Source: Candidatus Stahliibacteriota bacterium (GTDB taxonomy: Bacteria; Hydrothermota; UBA3072). From it: a stretch of 52,030 nucleotides of DNA. The DNA is taken from NCBI GenBank assembly GCA_004377355.1, contig SOIB01000066.1:1-52030 (forward strand), read 5' to 3'. The notes beneath the pieces are model-generated. The model was not told the origin of the DNA. It searched no databases and was given only the letters and a program-made list of their open reading frames with translations. Below, piece after piece: positions 22,493 to 52,030 of the stretch. The position numbers and the translations under genes were made by a program. How positions within the stretch are numbered: the stretch's first letter is position 1; each line of letters starts with the position of its first letter.

Positions 22493-23354
22493 AGGTTTCA
22501 CCCTTTCCTATTCCGATTAAATTACCCAGATGATTTTTTACCTGATATAATCCTTCAGGATAGAATCCTCTAACCTTTCCTCCATGAACAAAATTCCAGA
22601 CACCTTCCTCATCCAGGGTTATTGCAGATAAATGTGGTAATGCATCCCTCAATTTTATAACCTTCAATTTACCTTCCTCAATATCACTTAATTTTAAAGC
22701 GTCGGTAATATCATATGGATCGACTTTAACTCTTGTTAATTTACTCAAGTGGGCTCCATACCCTAGAGAGTTTCCAATATCTCTAGCCAGAGCACGCATA
22801 TAAGTACCTCTATTTGCTATACATCGCATAACAAAGAATGGAGGAGAAAAATCCAATAATTTAAGTTTCTTAATATATACATCCCGGATTGGTAAGTCTT
22901 TAATCTCTATACCCTCTCTTGCTTTCTTATAGAGTCGTTCTCCATCCTTCTTTATTGCACTATAAAGAGGAACCTTCTGTTTAATTTTTCCCCTAAATTT
23001 AGGGAGAACCTCCTCAAGTTTTTCCTTTGGAAAATCTGGAACAGCGGTTTGTTTAATAATATTTCCGTCTGGATCATCCGTATCTGTTATAATACCCAAT
23101 CTAACTGTACAAATGTATTCTTTAAAATCCCCTATATATTCCATCACTTTGGTTGCGTTTCCATATAATACAACAACTAATCCTTCAGCAAATGGATCAA
23201 GTGTTCCTGCATGACCAGCTTTTTTGAGATGGAGAATTTTCTTTACTCTGTTTAATAAGGCTGTGGTTCTTATTCCAGAGTCCTTATTTACAAGAATCAC
23301 TCCATCAGAAGGAATACTGTGCTGAGAGTCTATAGTTTGATGTTTCAAATTCAT
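22455..23354 (-). CDS. truB: tRNA pseudouridine-55 synthase TruB
   Basis: Makes pseudouridine 55 in the T-loop of tRNA. The catalytic motif HAGTLDPFAEGLVVV, with the essential Asp, is clear, as are GRGTYMRAL-type NRGTYMRALARDIG and the N-terminal ILVNKDSGIRTT. The start is uncertain: ATG 23354 gives about 299 residues but has a weak ribosome site and overlaps the PorV-like gene by 50 bases. GTG 23300, just after the PorV stop, would begin close to the usual family N-terminus. A longer frame to 23414 exists but is unlikely. The C-terminus holds a small PUA-like tail (GKVRGFYPEGLYQVKN). Confidence 0.93.
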   Translation of the reverse strand: MNLKHQTIDSQHSIPSDGVILVNKDSGIRTTALLNRVKKILHLKKAGHAGTLDPFAEGLVVVLYGNATKVMEYIGDFKEYICTVRLGIITDTDDPDGNIIKQTAVPDFPKEKLEEVLPKFRGKIKQKVPLYSAIKKDGERLYKKAREGIEIKDLPIRDVYIKKLKLLDFSPPFFVMRCIANRGTYMRALARDIGNSLGYGAHLSKLTRVKVDPYDITDALKLSDIEEGKLKVIKLRDALPHLSAITLDEEGVWNFVHGGKVRGFYPEGLYQVKNHLGNLIGIGKGETYAVQPVKVLYST

Positions 23355-24333
23355 ATATTTCTTGATCTGCTGAAATGTCAAAATAAAAGGTCTTATACTG
23401 GAACCCTGCTCCAAATGTTGGACCTACCCTTTTACCTATTCGGTCAATAAAATACCCCGACCTTAAAGAGAAAAGCTCATTAAAGATATATTCTATACCA
23501 GCTGCCTTCCAGGTATCTTCCCATATCCCGCTAAAGTCAGTGTAATCATCAATATTTACAATGATTTTTGTTAAGTCTATATTAAATCTCAGTTGATGGC
23601 GTTCATTCTCAAGAATTCCAAGTGAAGAACTTAATCGAATAGTTCTGGGAAGAGGATCAGAATTGCCACCTTCAATATAACGTATCTCTGTTCCCATATT
23701 CTGAAAGGCCAGTCCCAGACGTAATACACTAAGCCAATCCATTCCTAAGGCATTAATATTCATAAAATTATTCCATCTGTAAAAAACTGAACCATCTAAT
23801 GCCCATGCATGGCCTGTACCTCCACTTAAAACACCACCAATCTCTCTTCCTAATTCTTCAATTACATCATCAGGAGCCAAAAAGGAATATATATACTTCA
23901 TACCAAGAGAAAGACCCAGTTTTTCCGAAACGGGCATTGTTCCCGCTAATTTAATAGCAATATCATAAGTAATCCATTCCCTTTCTAATCCACCTACTGT
24001 GGCCAAGGTTCTACCGGTGGTTAGATAAATTATTGTAGCTGTAAAATTAATATCTCCTGCAACTGGCATCAAAAACGCAAGATATTCATAATACATACCT
24101 GGATAAAGTCCTGGTAACCAATTTGAGTGTTGGAGACCAATAATTTTCTTTTGAGTAAATGCCAAGCATGCATTATTGTAATAAGTTGAGAATATATCAC
24201 CCTCTATAGCTCCAAAAGCTCCACCCATCGAAGTTGCTCTTGAACCTGGGAATATCATTAAAAAAACCGCTCCGGCTTCAAGTGAACTTGAGAATAGTGG
24301 TAGCACACAAACCAATAATGCAAAAACAATCAA
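23305..24333 (-). CDS. PorV/PorQ-family outer-membrane protein
   Basis: A 342-residue outer-membrane beta-barrel of the PorV/PorQ type, partners of type IX secretion that carry or shuttle cargo. The family hallmark begins right after the signal peptide: GSRATSMGGAFGAIEGDIFS, then YYNNACLAF and a run of amphipathic strands to the C-terminal Phe of LSAQYSF. The only standard start codon, TTG 24333, leaves a signal peptide without basic residues. Four codons upstream an in-frame ATA at 24345 sits ideally behind GAGGAGG and would add two arginines (see findings). PorV-like proteins are common in FCB-group lineages even where the rest of the secretion machine is elsewhere. Confidence 0.85.
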   Translation of the reverse strand: MIVFALLVCVLPLFSSSLEAGAVFLMIFPGSRATSMGGAFGAIEGDIFSTYYNNACLAFTQKKIIGLQHSNWLPGLYPGMYYEYLAFLMPVAGDINFTATIIYLTTGRTLATVGGLEREWITYDIAIKLAGTMPVSEKLGLSLGMKYIYSFLAPDDVIEELGREIGGVLSGGTGHAWALDGSVFYRWNNFMNINALGMDWLSVLRLGLAFQNMGTEIRYIEGGNSDPLPRTIRLSSSLGILENERHQLRFNIDLTKIIVNIDDYTDFSGIWEDTWKAAGIEYIFNELFSLRSGYFIDRIGKRVGPTFGAGFQYKTFYFDISADQEIYEFETSNYRLSAQYSF

Positions 24334-25652: not shown

Positions 25653-25668
25653 TGGCATAAAAATTGTT
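25653..25668 (+). promoter_or_regulatory. Sigma-54-type promoter of the pilin/chaperone operon
   Basis: TGGCAT-N5-TTGTT matches the -24/-12 pattern TGGCAY-N5-TTGCW at every position but one (the -12 GC is GT). Pilin genes are classically sigma-54 controlled through PilS/PilR, which makes the position meaningful. The predicted start near 25678-25680 is within four bases of the pilin ATG at 25682. Confidence 0.6.
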
Positions 25669-25681
25669 GTATATTTGCGTT

Positions 25682-26077
25682 ATGAAGTATAAAATTAATA
25701 TTGGGTTTACTTTGATTGAATTAATGATTATAATAGTAATCATCGGAATCCTTGCTGCTATCGCAATCCCTAATATTATAAAAATTATAAACAGGGCGAA
25801 GGAAGCTAGGGTTAGGAGTAATATTCATACCGTGCAATTTGAGGTAGAGTTATATCAAGTTGACCATCCCGAGAGTTATCCATCAGATGTTGATGTAATA
25901 AAGCACCATCTCCCAGCACATTTGAAGAACCCCTTTAATGAGACGAACCCTGTTCTTCAATATGCGAGTGATCTTGATATCGATGGAGTGGTTGAGTGCA
26001 ATTCGGAAATTCTACGAAAAATGGATTTTTTTTTAAATACCATTGACAAATTGTCCATTATTATTTATAATTGCTAA
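25682..26077 (+). CDS. Type IV pilin-like (prepilin) protein
   Basis: A 131-residue prepilin with a short basic leader (MKYKINIG) and the class III signal: cleavage after Gly, then FTLIELMIIIVIIGILAAIA with Phe+1, Glu+5 and the hydrophobic stalk helix. The globular part (KHHLPAHLKNPFNETN) resembles small type IVa pilins or type II pseudopilins. The ATG at 25682 is chosen because the TTG at 25664 lies inside the sigma-54 promoter. No disulfide-forming pair is obvious; a single Cys is the last residue. PilT-like ATPase is encoded at 33039, but no assembly ATPase or prepilin peptidase is nearby. It is followed after six bases by the first secreted protein of the chaperone locus. Confidence 0.85.
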   Translation: MKYKINIGFTLIELMIIIVIIGILAAIAIPNIIKIINRAKEARVRSNIHTVQFEVELYQVDHPESYPSDVDVIKHHLPAHLKNPFNETNPVLQYASDLDIDGVVECNSEILRKMDFFLNTIDKLSIIIYNC

Positions 26078-26083
26078 GGTGAT

Positions 26084-26524
26084 ATGATGTTATTATGGAT
26101 TCCTTTACTTATATGTGGGCAAACACCGGTAGAGATTAATTTCTCCAACCGAGAAGCACTGGCTTTAGAGATAACAGTGAAGGATCTGTATATTGGACTT
26201 GTGAATCCTGCAACAGGACCTATTGAAATCCCCGGAGCAATTGAAGGTAAGATATATGCGAACACTAATTGGGTTCTGATAAGTTCAACACAAGAAGATT
26301 TTATATCATTAGAAGGAAATACAATTCCTATTAACCGATTAAAGTGGAGGGTCGGTGGTAAGGATTACAGCCCATTCAAAATGGGAGATGTTCATTTATT
26401 GGAAGGTAACCCAACGAGTGAAGATGGAATGTATTTCTCTGTGGATTTGATGCTGGATCTGAAATGGAAAGATGAAGCAGGGGAATATTCCACAAAGTTG
26501 ATGTTTACCGTTATGAAACAATAG
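26084..26524 (+). CDS. Small secreted beta-rich protein, candidate appendage subunit
   Basis: A 146-residue protein with an N-terminal hydrophobic signal (MMLLWIPLLICGQT). The mature part alternates polar and hydrophobic residues in many short strands and ends in a strand, GEYSTKLMFTVMKQ, the form seen in secreted Ig-like subunits such as spore-coat-U and related domains. No family is recognised with certainty. It starts six bases after the pilin stop and ends 14 bases before the next secreted protein, so the genes are cotranscribed. The role as an appendage subunit or adhesin is inferred from the neighbouring chaperone and barrel genes. Confidence 0.6.
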   Translation: MMLLWIPLLICGQTPVEINFSNREALALEITVKDLYIGLVNPATGPIEIPGAIEGKIYANTNWVLISSTQEDFISLEGNTIPINRLKWRVGGKDYSPFKMGDVHLLEGNPTSEDGMYFSVDLMLDLKWKDEAGEYSTKLMFTVMKQ

Positions 26525-26538
26525 AAAGGAGGTATAAA

Positions 26539-27078
26539 ATGCGTAGATTTATTTATTTGATTCTTCTTATACCGTTTGTAGTATTTGCGATTGGGACTTC
26601 AAAAGGTGATTCTCCTCAATCTCAAACAGCCACTCTTACCCTCAAGATTTCCAACAGTGTTGGTATAACAGTTAACAATGATGCAGAGTGGGATTTCACT
26701 ACAGTGCCCAATTTCCCACCAGATGTCTTCCCTCAGTACTATTATCCAACCACCCCAGCCTCGAGTCCTTATCAGCAACTTGAGTACATGGTTTATGGTG
26801 CGGCTGTAGGAGTACTTTGGGAGGTCATTGTTTCTGGAGACGGAGATCCAAACCCTGCCTGTGGTATTCTGCTTGGAGATATAGAATTCAGTGTAGCTGG
26901 TGCGGAGTCATGGACTCCATTCCATACATCCGCTACGCCCGATCAGATTGCAAATGGTTCAGGCAAAACAGCTGGTTGGGTCTCACTAAATCAGGATTAC
27001 CGCGTTAATATAGATGGCGATGAGGTATCGACTGTCGGTTCAACCGTCACCATAACCTATACCATCCAGACTCTTTAA
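26539..27078 (+). CDS. Secreted beta-rich protein, candidate major subunit
   Basis: A 179-residue protein with a clear Sec signal (residues 1-17, MRRF...VVFA) and a very strong ribosome site (AAAGGAGGT), stronger than its neighbours, as expected for an abundant subunit. The mature N-terminus carries an alternating strand (TATLTLKISNSVGITV) that could serve as a donor strand, and the C-terminus ends STVTITYTIQTL, another beta strand. One Cys is visible (NPACGILLGD), so no disulfide. Repeated aromatic-Pro stretches lie between. I recognise no named family. Subunit status is inference from expression strength, fold pattern and the adjacent chaperone. Confidence 0.6.
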   Translation: MRRFIYLILLIPFVVFAIGTSKGDSPQSQTATLTLKISNSVGITVNNDAEWDFTTVPNFPPDVFPQYYYPTTPASSPYQQLEYMVYGAAVGVLWEVIVSGDGDPNPACGILLGDIEFSVAGAESWTPFHTSATPDQIANGSGKTAGWVSLNQDYRVNIDGDEVSTVGSTVTITYTIQTL

Positions 27079-27121
27079 TGGTTAATAAAACTGGCCCTCC
27101 CTTCTAATCATTAATATGTAG

Positions 27122-27841
27122 ATGATAAATTTACTCCTTGCTGTTTCCCTCCTTGTTTCTCCTATGCGTATCGAAGTAACCACTTTACCGGGAGTGGTTA
27201 TGAAAGAAATTATTGTAAAGAATGCCGATGAATTCAATGAATCCCGGTTTGTTATTTATGAGGGGGATTGGAGACTTGATCCATGGGGGGTTGTATCGTA
27301 CTTTCCTCCTGGAAGCCTTACTACTTCATGTTCTGATTGGATTTCCATAAATCCCCGGGAATTTACCTTACCACCGGGTGAGCAGGAAGTAGTAAGGGTG
27401 ACATTTGATGTTCCTCCAGAGACAGAAGGCAGTTTCTGGAGCGTTATCTTCATTGAGGGAAAGCCGCCTGAGAGAGAAGAATGGACACCGCTTCTTCAAC
27501 TTGCGGGTAGAATTGGTATATCTACCTACCTCGAAATTGCCGGAACAGTGGTGCGGCAGGCTACTATCAAGGATATGAAAGTAGAGGATAACAACGTAAT
27601 TATAGAATTCTACAATGAGGGAAATCACTGGGTGAGGCCTGAGATCAAACTCTGGATTTCCAGAGGAAAAGAGAAGATATATTCTGATTCTGTTAAAACC
27701 TCTCTTGTGCTTCCTGAATCCAGGAGATACTATAAATTCAATCTGGATGATCTAGAACTCCATTCGGGTGACAGTATAATAACCCGGATAGATTATGGAG
27801 GAGAAAAAATACTGTTGGGGATCAAGGATATTAAATATTAA
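27122..27841 (+). CDS. PapD-like periplasmic chaperone
   Basis: A 239-residue protein with a hydrophobic N-terminus (MINLLLAVSLLVS). Two Ig-like domains are visible. The first contains MRIEVTTLPG, VIYEGDWRLDPWGVVSYFPPG, WISINPREFTLPPGEQEVVRVTFDVPPETEGSFWSVI-type strands, which is the pattern of pilus chaperone and related domains: an acidic YEGDW turn, then Trp-Ile-x-Ile-x-P, then pG-e-x-x-x-V-R-V. The second domain begins near residue 125. No Shine-Dalgarno site is seen in the 43-base gap. It sits between the candidate subunit and the barrel gene, the usual place for a pilus chaperone. The assignment rests on pattern only. Confidence 0.65.
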   Translation: MINLLLAVSLLVSPMRIEVTTLPGVVMKEIIVKNADEFNESRFVIYEGDWRLDPWGVVSYFPPGSLTTSCSDWISINPREFTLPPGEQEVVRVTFDVPPETEGSFWSVIFIEGKPPEREEWTPLLQLAGRIGISTYLEIAGTVVRQATIKDMKVEDNNVIIEFYNEGNHWVRPEIKLWISRGKEKIYSDSVKTSLVLPESRRYYKFNLDDLELHSGDSIITRIDYGGEKILLGIKDIKY

Positions 27842-27847
27842 TCGATA

Positions 27848-29674
27848 ATGACCCTTTTTCTTATTTCGTTTACATATTTTTCCCAACTTAGCCATAACCT
27901 ATATCAGTATCAGGAAGAGACTTTTTCGGTTACAAGCTGGGGAATTGAACTTGAAGAAGATCAATGGACCATCTATTCCCGTTTATACAGATATCAAAGG
28001 ATGGCAGGGCTTAAGGAATTTACTTTCCGATACGATTCAATATTGATTAATAAGAACTATTATCATTTATTGGCTGGGGATAATAATAGAGTAAGAGGAC
28101 TTCTGGTTGGATCGAAAACAAAGGGTTTTGGGTGGGATTTGCAAGTAGGGAAAATGCAGGATATTATACCAGGCCCATTCCCAACCTATAATAGGAATCT
28201 CTTCTATTCTGAGTTAGATCTCAGCATTTCCGGTCATAATTTTTTCCTTATGGGTAGATGGGATAAAGATAGTTATCTACCACTCCTTGGAGACCAATTT
28301 GTGTTTAAACATGGAAACCTTAGTCTGTTGAACGACATTAAGATCAGTTATAGAGATCGCCCCGGGATAGCTTTATATGAAGATCTTTATTACAAAAGGC
28401 CCAATCTCTTCTTACGCTCATTTCTTCGTTATTTTAGTTCGGGATTTTCCGATAAAGAGAATATAGTTTACAGCAGGGGAAGGGTGAACTGGGGGATGAA
28501 TTCTTCATATAGGTTCCCCTCTGGTCTTTCTATCCATTCAGGAGCGGGGTTCAGAGGAATGTTGGATGAAAAACTGGAGTATCTGTTTTTGGGAGGGCTA
28601 TCTTTTTATATGCCGGGAAGGATCTCATTTGATTTTACCAATAATCTTATGGGGGGAGGATACAGGGATTGGGGATATAGGCGTTATCTCAGACTGAATG
28701 TGCCTTTCAAGCGGCATCAATTTCTAGTCAATTATGAAAAGAGTAGCATTAATAGGGAAAGGGAGTCCTTCGGTTTAGAAGGCCAGTTCTATCTTTCAAG
28801 TAGGAGCAGGCTGGATCTTTCCTTTGAAAGGATGAGTCTTTATGGATGGGATATCTCCTTTGGCGGAATGCTTTCTCCCTTCAGGAATCTCAAGACAAAC
28901 TGGAGATTCCAGTATCGAGAAGATCGTCTCTATTATAATACCTCTCTTTCCTGGATTGGTTGGGGGAATTGGATTGGTAGATTCGGTATAGCCGGGAATA
29001 CGGAGACTAATTCAAAACAATATCGACTTGAAATAACGAAAAGCGGTACTCTGGAGAAATTTGGCATCGGTGGGGTTACGGGTTTGGTCTGGCAGGATGA
29101 AAATGGAGATAGGATAAGACAGGAGGGAGAACCTCCAGTCAGGGATATTGAGGTAATCCTTGATGAAGAGAGGAGGACGAAGGTTGATGAGAGGGGCAGG
29201 TATAAATTCAGACTGATCCCGAAGGGAGAACATACCATAAAACTTGATATCAAAGGAGTTCCCGCCTTTTTAGGTACGGAAAGGGTTGAGAAAAGTTTTA
29301 CAAGTGGCTTCTTTGATGTACAGGTAATAGATTTTCCTATCTACGGACTTTCCTCTATTCAGGGTAGAGTCTACTACGATAAAAATCATAATTTAAAATG
29401 GGATCCCGATGAAGGAGGCGTGCCCAACGTAAGGGTAACAGTAAAGATAAAGAAGTTCGAGAAGTATACTTACACCTGGCAAAACGGTACATATCTTATT
29501 AGCAACCTTGTACCTGGAGTCTATACCGTTACTGCTTCCATTCTTCCTCCTGGCTATGAATTAAGTCCTAAGGGGCTGGTTTTATATATCGAACTCACTC
29601 CCGGAACAAAGATAAAAGGACTAAATTTTGGGGTGGCTACCCCGAAGAAAGAGGTAGAAATAAAAAGGTTCTGA
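27848..29674 (+). CDS. Outer-membrane barrel-like protein with two SdrD-B-type domains, candidate usher
   Basis: A 608-residue protein. A short hydrophobic start is followed by some 400 residues of alternating aromatic and polar strands with tight turns (for example SLNDIKISYRDRPG, NWRFQYREDRLYYNTSLSW), the look of a large beta-barrel. Residues 415-515 and 516-600 each hold an SdrD-B/carboxypeptidase-regulatory-like domain with the pattern GxVxxDxNxDxxxxxGE and a later GRYxFxLIPxG (seen as GLVWQDENGDRIRQEGE and GRVYYDKNHNLKWDPDEGG). Classical ushers are about 800 residues with a plug domain; this is shorter and I see no plug. The usher role is inferred from the neighbours. Confidence 0.65.
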   Translation: MTLFLISFTYFSQLSHNLYQYQEETFSVTSWGIELEEDQWTIYSRLYRYQRMAGLKEFTFRYDSILINKNYYHLLAGDNNRVRGLLVGSKTKGFGWDLQVGKMQDIIPGPFPTYNRNLFYSELDLSISGHNFFLMGRWDKDSYLPLLGDQFVFKHGNLSLLNDIKISYRDRPGIALYEDLYYKRPNLFLRSFLRYFSSGFSDKENIVYSRGRVNWGMNSSYRFPSGLSIHSGAGFRGMLDEKLEYLFLGGLSFYMPGRISFDFTNNLMGGGYRDWGYRRYLRLNVPFKRHQFLVNYEKSSINRERESFGLEGQFYLSSRSRLDLSFERMSLYGWDISFGGMLSPFRNLKTNWRFQYREDRLYYNTSLSWIGWGNWIGRFGIAGNTETNSKQYRLEITKSGTLEKFGIGGVTGLVWQDENGDRIRQEGEPPVRDIEVILDEERRTKVDERGRYKFRLIPKGEHTIKLDIKGVPAFLGTERVEKSFTSGFFDVQVIDFPIYGLSSIQGRVYYDKNHNLKWDPDEGGVPNVRVTVKIKKFEKYTYTWQNGTYLISNLVPGVYTVTASILPPGYELSPKGLVLYIELTPGTKIKGLNFGVATPKKEVEIKRF

Positions 29675-29946: not shown

Positions 29947-30522
29947 TTATCTCACCATTATTAACTTCTTGGATGAATTGTAATCCCCTGCCACAATCCT
30001 ATAGAAATACGAACCGCTTGGAACTTTTTCTCCTTTCTCATTTCTTCCATCCCAAATAACTGTATATTCGCCGGGTTCCTTTTTGCCCTCGACAAGAATC
30101 CTCACTAATTGACCTGCTAAATTATATATTTTGAGCGATACTTCCCCTTTTTCCTGAAGGATATAGCGGATTCTTGATTCCTTTACACCCTTAAAGAGTA
30201 TTTCATACACGCCATCCTCATTAACATCTATCAATCGGGGGCTCAAAAGTGGGTGATACCAACCACCGTAGCTGTCTGCACCATCCTCAATATAATTCCA
30301 CTTCTCAGATTCCCATTCTAAGTTTCCTGTAGTTCCATCAATTACAAGTATCCTATCGGAAAGAAAAACAACTTCTTTTGTTGCATCCCCATCAGTATCT
30401 TCACATCCAATAAAAAGATATGCTTCAGTGTCCCAAGTCTCTTGGTATTGAGCGCTTACTGGATAAACCATAAATCCAAAAATTCCAACCATGATTAGTA
30501 TACGGAATAAGTTTTTAAACAC
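29947..30522 (-). CDS. Small secreted protein with Ca-binding-type repeat and C-terminal sorting domain
   Basis: The start is GTG at 30522, with AAGGAGG five bases ahead; this gives 191 residues, and a further upstream ATG is not needed. A signal peptide (VFKNLFRILIMVGIFGFMVY) ends near Ala-Gln. Two Asp-rich turns, DTDGDATKE and DVNEDGVYE, resemble FG-GAP/EF-like calcium loops. The C-terminal 80 residues form a FlgD-Ig/sorting-domain type unit: YNLAGQLVRILVEGKKEPG, WDGRNEKGEKVPSGSYFYRI and the closing KKLIMVR. It would be exported and anchored by a PorV-type route (inference). It looks like a shortened version of a larger repeat protein, as most such cargos are several hundred residues. Confidence 0.75.
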   Translation of the reverse strand: MFKNLFRILIMVGIFGFMVYPVSAQYQETWDTEAYLFIGCEDTDGDATKEVVFLSDRILVIDGTTGNLEWESEKWNYIEDGADSYGGWYHPLLSPRLIDVNEDGVYEILFKGVKESRIRYILQEKGEVSLKIYNLAGQLVRILVEGKKEPGEYTVIWDGRNEKGEKVPSGSYFYRIVAGDYNSSKKLIMVR

Positions 30523-30915
30523 TTTAACCTCCTTATTTTTGCTTATTTTACAACAATATTTCTTCATAGGCAAGCTTTTCACCTAAATTTGTTGGAAGGA
30601 CGTAAATTATAAAATTAACTTACTATTACAATATTTTCATTCTCCCCCCTTTTATAAAATATAAACAGATAAATCAGACAAGCCAAAAAACCCTTATTTT
30701 CAATTCCTTTCTTCAAAATTCAGAAACATTAATAACTTCCCAAAATATAAGGTTTAAAAATGATTTTATAGTAATCATAACACGCTCCAAAAAACTTGAC
30801 ATCATTTATATTTTTGTTATATTACAAAAGCAATGTTTGAGACTAGGATAATTTCATTAGAATCTAGATTCGCGAAGTTGGCACAAACAAGATTTAATGC
30901 TTTATAAGTTATTGA
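30523..30915. other. Intergenic region with tRNA promoter
   Basis: AT-rich, no gene seen. Holds the upstream region of the minus-strand sorting-domain gene and the tRNA promoter at 30796-30823. Otherwise I see no repeat or conserved structure in it. Confidence 0.5.
30796..30823 (+). promoter_or_regulatory. Promoter of the two tRNA genes
   Basis: TTGACA (30796-30801), a 16-base spacer and TATATT (30818-30823). The first tRNA begins at 30916, giving a leader of about 85 bases before processing. Confidence 0.65.

Positions 30916-49825: not shown

Positions 49826-52030
<2,205 letters not shown>

Follow-up and report, generated by a model that had tools for sequence, protein, structure and literature searches.

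A probable divergent, minimal chaperone-usher-type surface-fibre operon in candidate division WOR-3

Introduction

In the chaperone-usher pathway, pilus chaperones complete their subunits by means of a parallel strand. A comparable picture has been drawn for the WxL clusters of Gram-positive bacteria, in which models predict that a strand of the WxLIP protein completes the WxL sandwich, also in parallel (PMC10599100). PapD and ushers go unmentioned in the main text of that paper, and targeted searches of the available literature found no paper connecting WxLIP to pilus chaperones. The present analysis concerns an operon located at 26084-29674 on the forward strand of a 52,030-nucleotide stretch of DNA (contig SOIB01000066.1 of GenBank assembly GCA_004377355.1, Candidatus Stahliibacteriota bacterium), hereafter referred to as the window, whose genome measures 1.8 Mb and is ~95% complete. 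Two small secreted proteins, a chaperone-like protein and a larger barrel-like protein are encoded there, and together they probably form a divergent, minimal chaperone-usher-type surface-fibre system.

The chaperone and its gene neighbourhood

A sequence-only reading of the window had described five genes in one direction separated by small gaps, and these are indeed found on the plus strand at 25682-29674. A type IV prepilin open reading frame (ORF; 25682-26077, PF07963 above cut-off) is followed by subunit 1 (26084-26524), a small secreted beta protein of 146 amino acids (aa), subunit 2 (26539-27078, 179 aa), a putative periplasmic chaperone with two Ig domains (27122-27841, 239 aa) and a usher-like outer-membrane protein of 608 aa (27848-29674), which comprises a signal peptide, a predicted barrel and two C-terminal sandwich domains. 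The very strong ribosome site attributed to the second small protein is a textbook AAAGGAGGT at 26525-26533 (+), and the 608-residue protein does end in two SdrD-B-type domains (PF17210, E 1.3e-17). Apart from these two domains and the prepilin, no Pfam match was obtained over the five ORFs, and a NCBIfam scan of the window ORFs gave nothing useful beyond Pfam.

When the chaperone family was compared by hhalign with eight PapD-family chaperones of E. coli, a match of 96.3% (E 1.7e-9) was obtained over 210 columns, covering both domains and taking in the C-terminal DYGG/NDYGA motif. With the WxLIP proteins of lactic acid bacteria, the match reached 97.0% (E 8.7e-11) over 221 columns, again across both domains, while PapD-family and WxLIP profiles compared directly with each other gave only 17-20%. 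The Ig-fold controls YeeJ, LacZ and CsgC, tested as single sequences, did not exceed 3%. Single-sequence queries in the same test ranged from 0.3% to 87% for pilus chaperones and from 7% to 96% for WxLIPs and, because of this wide scatter, the strength of the link is owed to the alignments. Judged by these profiles, the product of 27122-27841 is a true homologue of the PapD-family two-Ig chaperones, and its family bridges PapD-type chaperones and WxLIP, which are not known to be linked.

As for individual members, the chaperone of locus L044 lies narrowly above the Pfam PapD_N cut-off and those of L026 and L050 exceed the cut-off of WxLIP_PGBD (PF06030), below which the window protein falls. 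A sequence search of the PDB with the first chaperone alignment returned EfmWxLIP1 as best match (E 0.0014), CsuC and EcpB being above 0.1; with the enlarged alignment, EcpB and CsuC were found at 0.09-0.4 and WxLIP was no longer listed. Pfam matches to fn3_5, Cep192 and HYDIN-type families remained below cut-off and were taken as generic Ig-fold similarity. The conserved basic pair of the chaperone cleft (R8/K112 in PapD) has no clear alignment in the profile comparison, and some of the family members share a conserved arginine nearby (AGRIG). The chaperone sequences end at the second Ig domain, with no C-terminal membrane helix.

Concerning the distribution of the operon, the chaperone profile matches 40 of 147 WOR-3 genomes, tandem-duplicated forms included, and the barrel profile 29. 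In 25 of the latter, the chaperone gene ends 3-78 bp upstream of the barrel gene, on the same strand; as for the remaining four, the barrel stands alone at a contig edge in two, and in the others a partial or split barrel match shares its contig with the chaperone. The linkage of the last four genes (26084-29674) is thus far above chance expectation. Named genomes encoding the same chaperone mostly belong to candidate division WOR-3; in that scan, a single-protein query and an earlier profile gave no matches, and it was a narrower alignment that succeeded. In the WOR-3 loci, the chaperone gene is preceded by genes for one or two small secreted proteins, and sometimes by three, and in L088 a second subunit lies between chaperone and barrel. 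The closest relatives, L022 and L028, have an extra subunit gene directly 3' of the barrel.

A related operon was found on three Deinococcus plasmids and in one Thermaceae metagenome-assembled genome; its genes encode, in turn, a large subunit, the chaperone, a small subunit and a protein of 978-1090 aa that has domains of SdrD-B or carboxypeptidase type. The chaperones match the WOR-3 profile at E 1.4e-39 or better and the small subunits at E 1e-7 or better. The large protein, 370-480 aa longer than the window barrel protein, owes its match to the WOR-3 profile chiefly to the C-terminal domains, and this match does not establish that the barrels of the different phyla are homologous. In the Deinococcus records, the genes of the operon are annotated as hypothetical, except that one of the large proteins takes its name from a carboxypeptidase-like domain.

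The usher-like barrel

The AlphaFold2 model of the 608-aa protein (pLDDT 87.2, pTM 0.59) displays ~26 long strands over residues 11-398, to be set beside the about 24 strands of the usher fold for which it was tested, followed by two sandwich domains. In a Foldseek comparison with the PDB, the nine best of 1178 matches are all FimD (E 7.5e-18 to 1.2e-13), PapC coming next among barrels (best E 1.4e-11). Structures limited to the barrels of FimD and PapC (3ohn, 2vqi) are matched at E 4e-9 to 6e-8, ahead of every non-usher barrel, the best of which are OmpU and LptD (E ~7e-7 to 9e-7). SdrD_B/CarboxypepD_reg domains are present in all 22 members of the barrel family; the window protein has two, at 29060-29674 (+), with a conserved C-terminal Phe, and they occupy the place of the usher domains CTD1 and CTD2.

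Several results weigh against taking this protein for an usher. Its Foldseek TM-scores are modest (~0.4), and part of the full-length fold score may stem from the C-terminal SdrD-B domains. Profile-profile comparison with six E. coli ushers gave 0.2%, that is, no similarity, and the usher family PF00577 was found in none of the 147 WOR-3 genomes, the E. coli control being positive. No plug is present, the longest break between strands being ~15 aa in the model, with no insert longer than 28 aa in the 22 members; nor is there room for an N-terminal usher domain, the part of known ushers that recruits complexes of chaperone and subunit, since the first barrel strand begins at residue 11. As the profile comparison finds nothing, the likeness to ushers rests on fold and context, and "usher-like" is used here as a statement about these two, not about proven descent.

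The lack of sequence homology to ushers, the modest TM-scores and the share of the SdrD-B domains in the fold score would also suit a large porin or adhesin scaffold that displays its SdrD-B domains, with chaperone and subunits forming a separate secreted complex; the operon would then group genes by function, and no export step would take place. We regard such an arrangement as improbable: it is FimD and PapC in particular, barrel-only structures included, that head the fold matches, and the linkage of the barrel to a PapD homologue is nearly exclusive. An usher-like role of the barrel is therefore preferred.

The small subunits

The two types of small subunit merge into one family in iterative profiles (hhalign 97%). 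Subunit 1 has no Pfam match and carries a short mature N-terminal extension of ~13 aa, its signal peptide being judged by eye; no Pfam pilin family is matched by the subunits. Subunit 2, modelled by AlphaFold2 with a pLDDT of 87.9, is predicted to be an Ig-like, pilin-type protein whose terminal beta strand is also the end of the protein. Its 19 best PDB matches in Foldseek are all chaperone-usher pilins, with weak E-values (0.013-0.043). Residues 28-38 of its N-terminal extension (SQTATLTLKIS, 26620-26652, +) are unpaired in the model and could serve as a donor strand: the 27 family members in the alignment share the hydrophobic alternation of this segment (p 5e-5, computed on 18 non-redundant ones). 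The second subunit of other WOR-3 families, adjacent to the chaperone, begins at the fold core and has no extension, signal-peptide ends being called crudely. The same split between presence and absence of an extension separates rod from tip subunits in chaperone-usher pili.

Two points tell against pilin identity, namely the result of the profile comparison with E. coli pilins (3%) and the weakness of the fold E-values, the best of which is 0.013. Usher and pilin homology was sought by profile comparison and not found and, in the absence of sequence similarity to either, the barrel and subunit assignments rest on fold and context. Profile comparison upheld the sequence-only reading for PapD, and gave no match to ushers or E. 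coli pilins. Its two-domain chaperone is borne out over both domains, and its usher-like barrel without a plug agrees with FimD as best fold match and with the absence of any plug-sized insert. The fold comparison of subunit 2 supports its two small, beta-rich secreted substrates, and the gene order whose conservation it proposed to check recurs in WOR-3, with a related operon in Deinococcota.

No Pfam WxL match was found in the subunits. When the two are combined in one profile, WxL is matched at 77.8% over 82 columns, and since this match vanishes when subunits 1 and 2 are compared separately (only 1.5-2.5%), homology between the subunits and WxL is only suggestive. Taken with the chaperone results, it nonetheless opens a different view of the operon, as a WxL-type surface system of a diderm in which the chaperone-like protein lastingly caps WxL-like subunits and displays them at the cell surface, the barrel is their outer-membrane anchor or exporter, and no polymer is made. 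The slightly better match of the chaperone to WxLIP than to PapD and its members above the WxLIP_PGBD cut-off are in line with such a system, as is the WxL-WxLIP-WxL order of lactic acid bacteria, which resembles the subunit-chaperone-subunit order of Deinococcus. We nevertheless consider it unlikely, given that the chaperone has no C-terminal membrane helix, that the usual next gene codes for a usher-like barrel, that a donor-strand-like extension is present on the subunits, and that the WxL match is lost with the separate profiles.

The prepilin and the transcription start

The sequence-only reading placed the type IV prepilin within the operon and a sigma-54 promoter in front of it, and its proposed new arrangement rested in part on these; neither element is conserved and that part of the proposal is left unsupported. 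Of 28 related loci, only L047 has a pilin-like ORF in the stretch examined, ~4 kb from the chaperone; the other 27 have none, and the pilin was rejected as a fifth component. Further pilins are encoded elsewhere in the window genome. The sigma-54-like site TGGCATAAAAATTGTT at 25653, 13 bp from the pilin ATG, has GT in place of the required GC in its -12 element. No good counterpart was found upstream of most relatives, L022 providing one moderate match.

A perfect sigma-70-type promoter, TTGACA-17-TATAAT (26043-26071, +; 0.02 expected per window), is located inside the final codons of the prepilin ORF and ends 12 bp ahead of the start of subunit 1. Perfect (12/12) sites were also found in L021 and L032, at 13 and 6 bp from the start, respectively. 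Within 150 bp upstream, 10 of 21 relatives have a sigma-70-type site with a shuffle p ≤ 0.05, and three further relatives have a 10/12 site at most 16 bp from the start. On account of the perfect promoter and of its recurrence in relatives, subunit 1 is most likely the first gene of the transcription unit, and the mRNA leader would be very short, as far as can be read from the DNA. Sigma-54 control was rejected as the default for the window locus, the site being poor and the sigma-70-type promoter recurrent.

A single five-gene unit, with one sigma-54 promoter serving both the type IV pilin and the chaperone-usher-like genes, could still appeal to the 6 bp that separate the pilin stop from the subunit 1 start in the window, to the RpoN encoded in the genome and to the NtrC-type regulators found beside the operon in one WOR-3 family. 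Since nearly all related loci lack the pilin, the sigma-54 site is poor and has no good counterpart in most relatives, and a perfect, recurrent promoter of the other type lies at subunit 1, such a unit appears highly improbable. In the family in question (L025-L027, L030 and L031), NtrC-type response regulators that depend on sigma-54 flank the operon, PF00158 being confirmed for L025 and L027, and regulation may consequently differ there. The flank of L025 also encodes a histidine kinase.

Variant arrangements and flanking genes

In several other WOR-3 genomes (L049, L050/L131, L051, L125, L126, L127 and L129), small secreted proteins are followed by a tandem chaperone-like protein and then by a small secretin-type protein. 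The tandem-duplicated chaperone-like proteins measure 512-598 aa and have four Ig domains, and the three secretin-type proteins that were scanned match PF00263 at E 1e-41 to 1e-46. This looks like a second WOR-3 arrangement, where a secretin takes the place of the barrel as partner of the chaperone. Locus L130 (G087) encodes a subunit, a chaperone and a 1299-aa protein with weak matches to the subunit and barrel profiles, followed by a second chaperone-like gene.

As for the surroundings of the window operon, a PorV-like type IX secretion gene (23305-24333, -) and a gene for a protein with a FlgD_ig/CHU_C sorting-type domain (29947-30582, -) flank it on either side. A partial 23S rRNA gene occupies the contig end (49824-52030, -); a GC-rich ORF contained in it, at 50012-50419, is not a gene.

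Discussion

From the gene order, the homology of the chaperone, the fold-level similarity of barrel and subunit and the anatomy of the extension, all of which are directly seen, we infer how the system would function. The unit, presumably transcribed from the sigma-70-type promoter at the first subunit, would provide two small subunits that reach the periplasm by Sec, where the chaperone may hold each of them by lending a beta strand. By analogy with usher CTDs, the barrel would receive the chaperone-subunit complexes at its two C-terminal domains of SdrD-B type. The N-terminal extension of an incoming subunit would then displace the chaperone strand in the previous one, and the subunits, passing through the barrel, would form a polymer on the cell surface. 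In relatives whose chaperone-adjacent subunit lacks an extension, that subunit would be placed at the tip.

If this holds true, chaperone-usher-type fibres also occur in phyla in which the standard model detects no usher, namely WOR-3 and perhaps some Deinococcota, and an usher devoid of both plug and N-terminal domain raises the question of gating and loading. The related operon on Deinococcus plasmids would make the system testable in harmless bacteria that are in culture. Moreover, the chaperone family provides a link between pilus chaperones and the WxL system known from Gram-positive commensals, and makes it testable that WxLIP is a membrane-anchored homologue of pilus chaperones, acting by strand donation. 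We would tentatively go further, and with somewhat less than even confidence propose that the PapD/pilin pairs of diderms and the WxLIP/WxL pairs of monoderms make up one strand-donating superfamily, of which the WOR-3 and Deinococcota operons would be the revealing intermediate, a tandem-duplicated chaperone of WOR-3 being paired with a small secretin in place of a barrel.

Among known systems, the archaeal threads (Sulfolobus 0406 filament) share strand-donated filament subunits with the proposed fibre, and the weaker hits in the fold search with subunit 2 include this filament (7pnb); they are archaeal, however, and rank below chaperone-usher pilins for that subunit. They are not known to be encoded with a chaperone and a barrel in one operon. 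The WxL/WxLIP (DUF916-DUF3324) clusters resemble the WOR-3 operon in a chaperone homologous over both domains and in the weak combined resemblance of the subunits to WxL. They differ from it in that WxLIP carries a C-terminal membrane helix, belongs to single-membrane bacteria and has no barrel partner, whereas the WOR-3 chaperone lacks such a helix and has a barrel partner.

With the chaperone-usher pathway (type 1 and P pili, archaic Csu, alternative ECP), the operon has in common a two-Ig chaperone homologous over its full length, adjacent genes, a usher-like barrel with two C-terminal sandwich domains, and small subunits, predicted to be Ig-like, with a donor-like N-terminal extension. The WOR-3 barrel departs from that pathway by its size (608 aa vs. 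878 for FimD), by the absence of a plug and of an N-terminal domain, by C-terminal domains of SdrD-B type and by the lack of a PF00577 match. In terms of strict membership, a PapD-family chaperone is thus present and the usher hallmarks (PF00577, plug and N-terminal domain) are not, and for this reason the operon is filed as working like a chaperone-usher system rather than as a proven member. Overall, it looks like a hitherto unrecognised, stripped-down variant of the chaperone-usher machinery, one that PF00577 misses.

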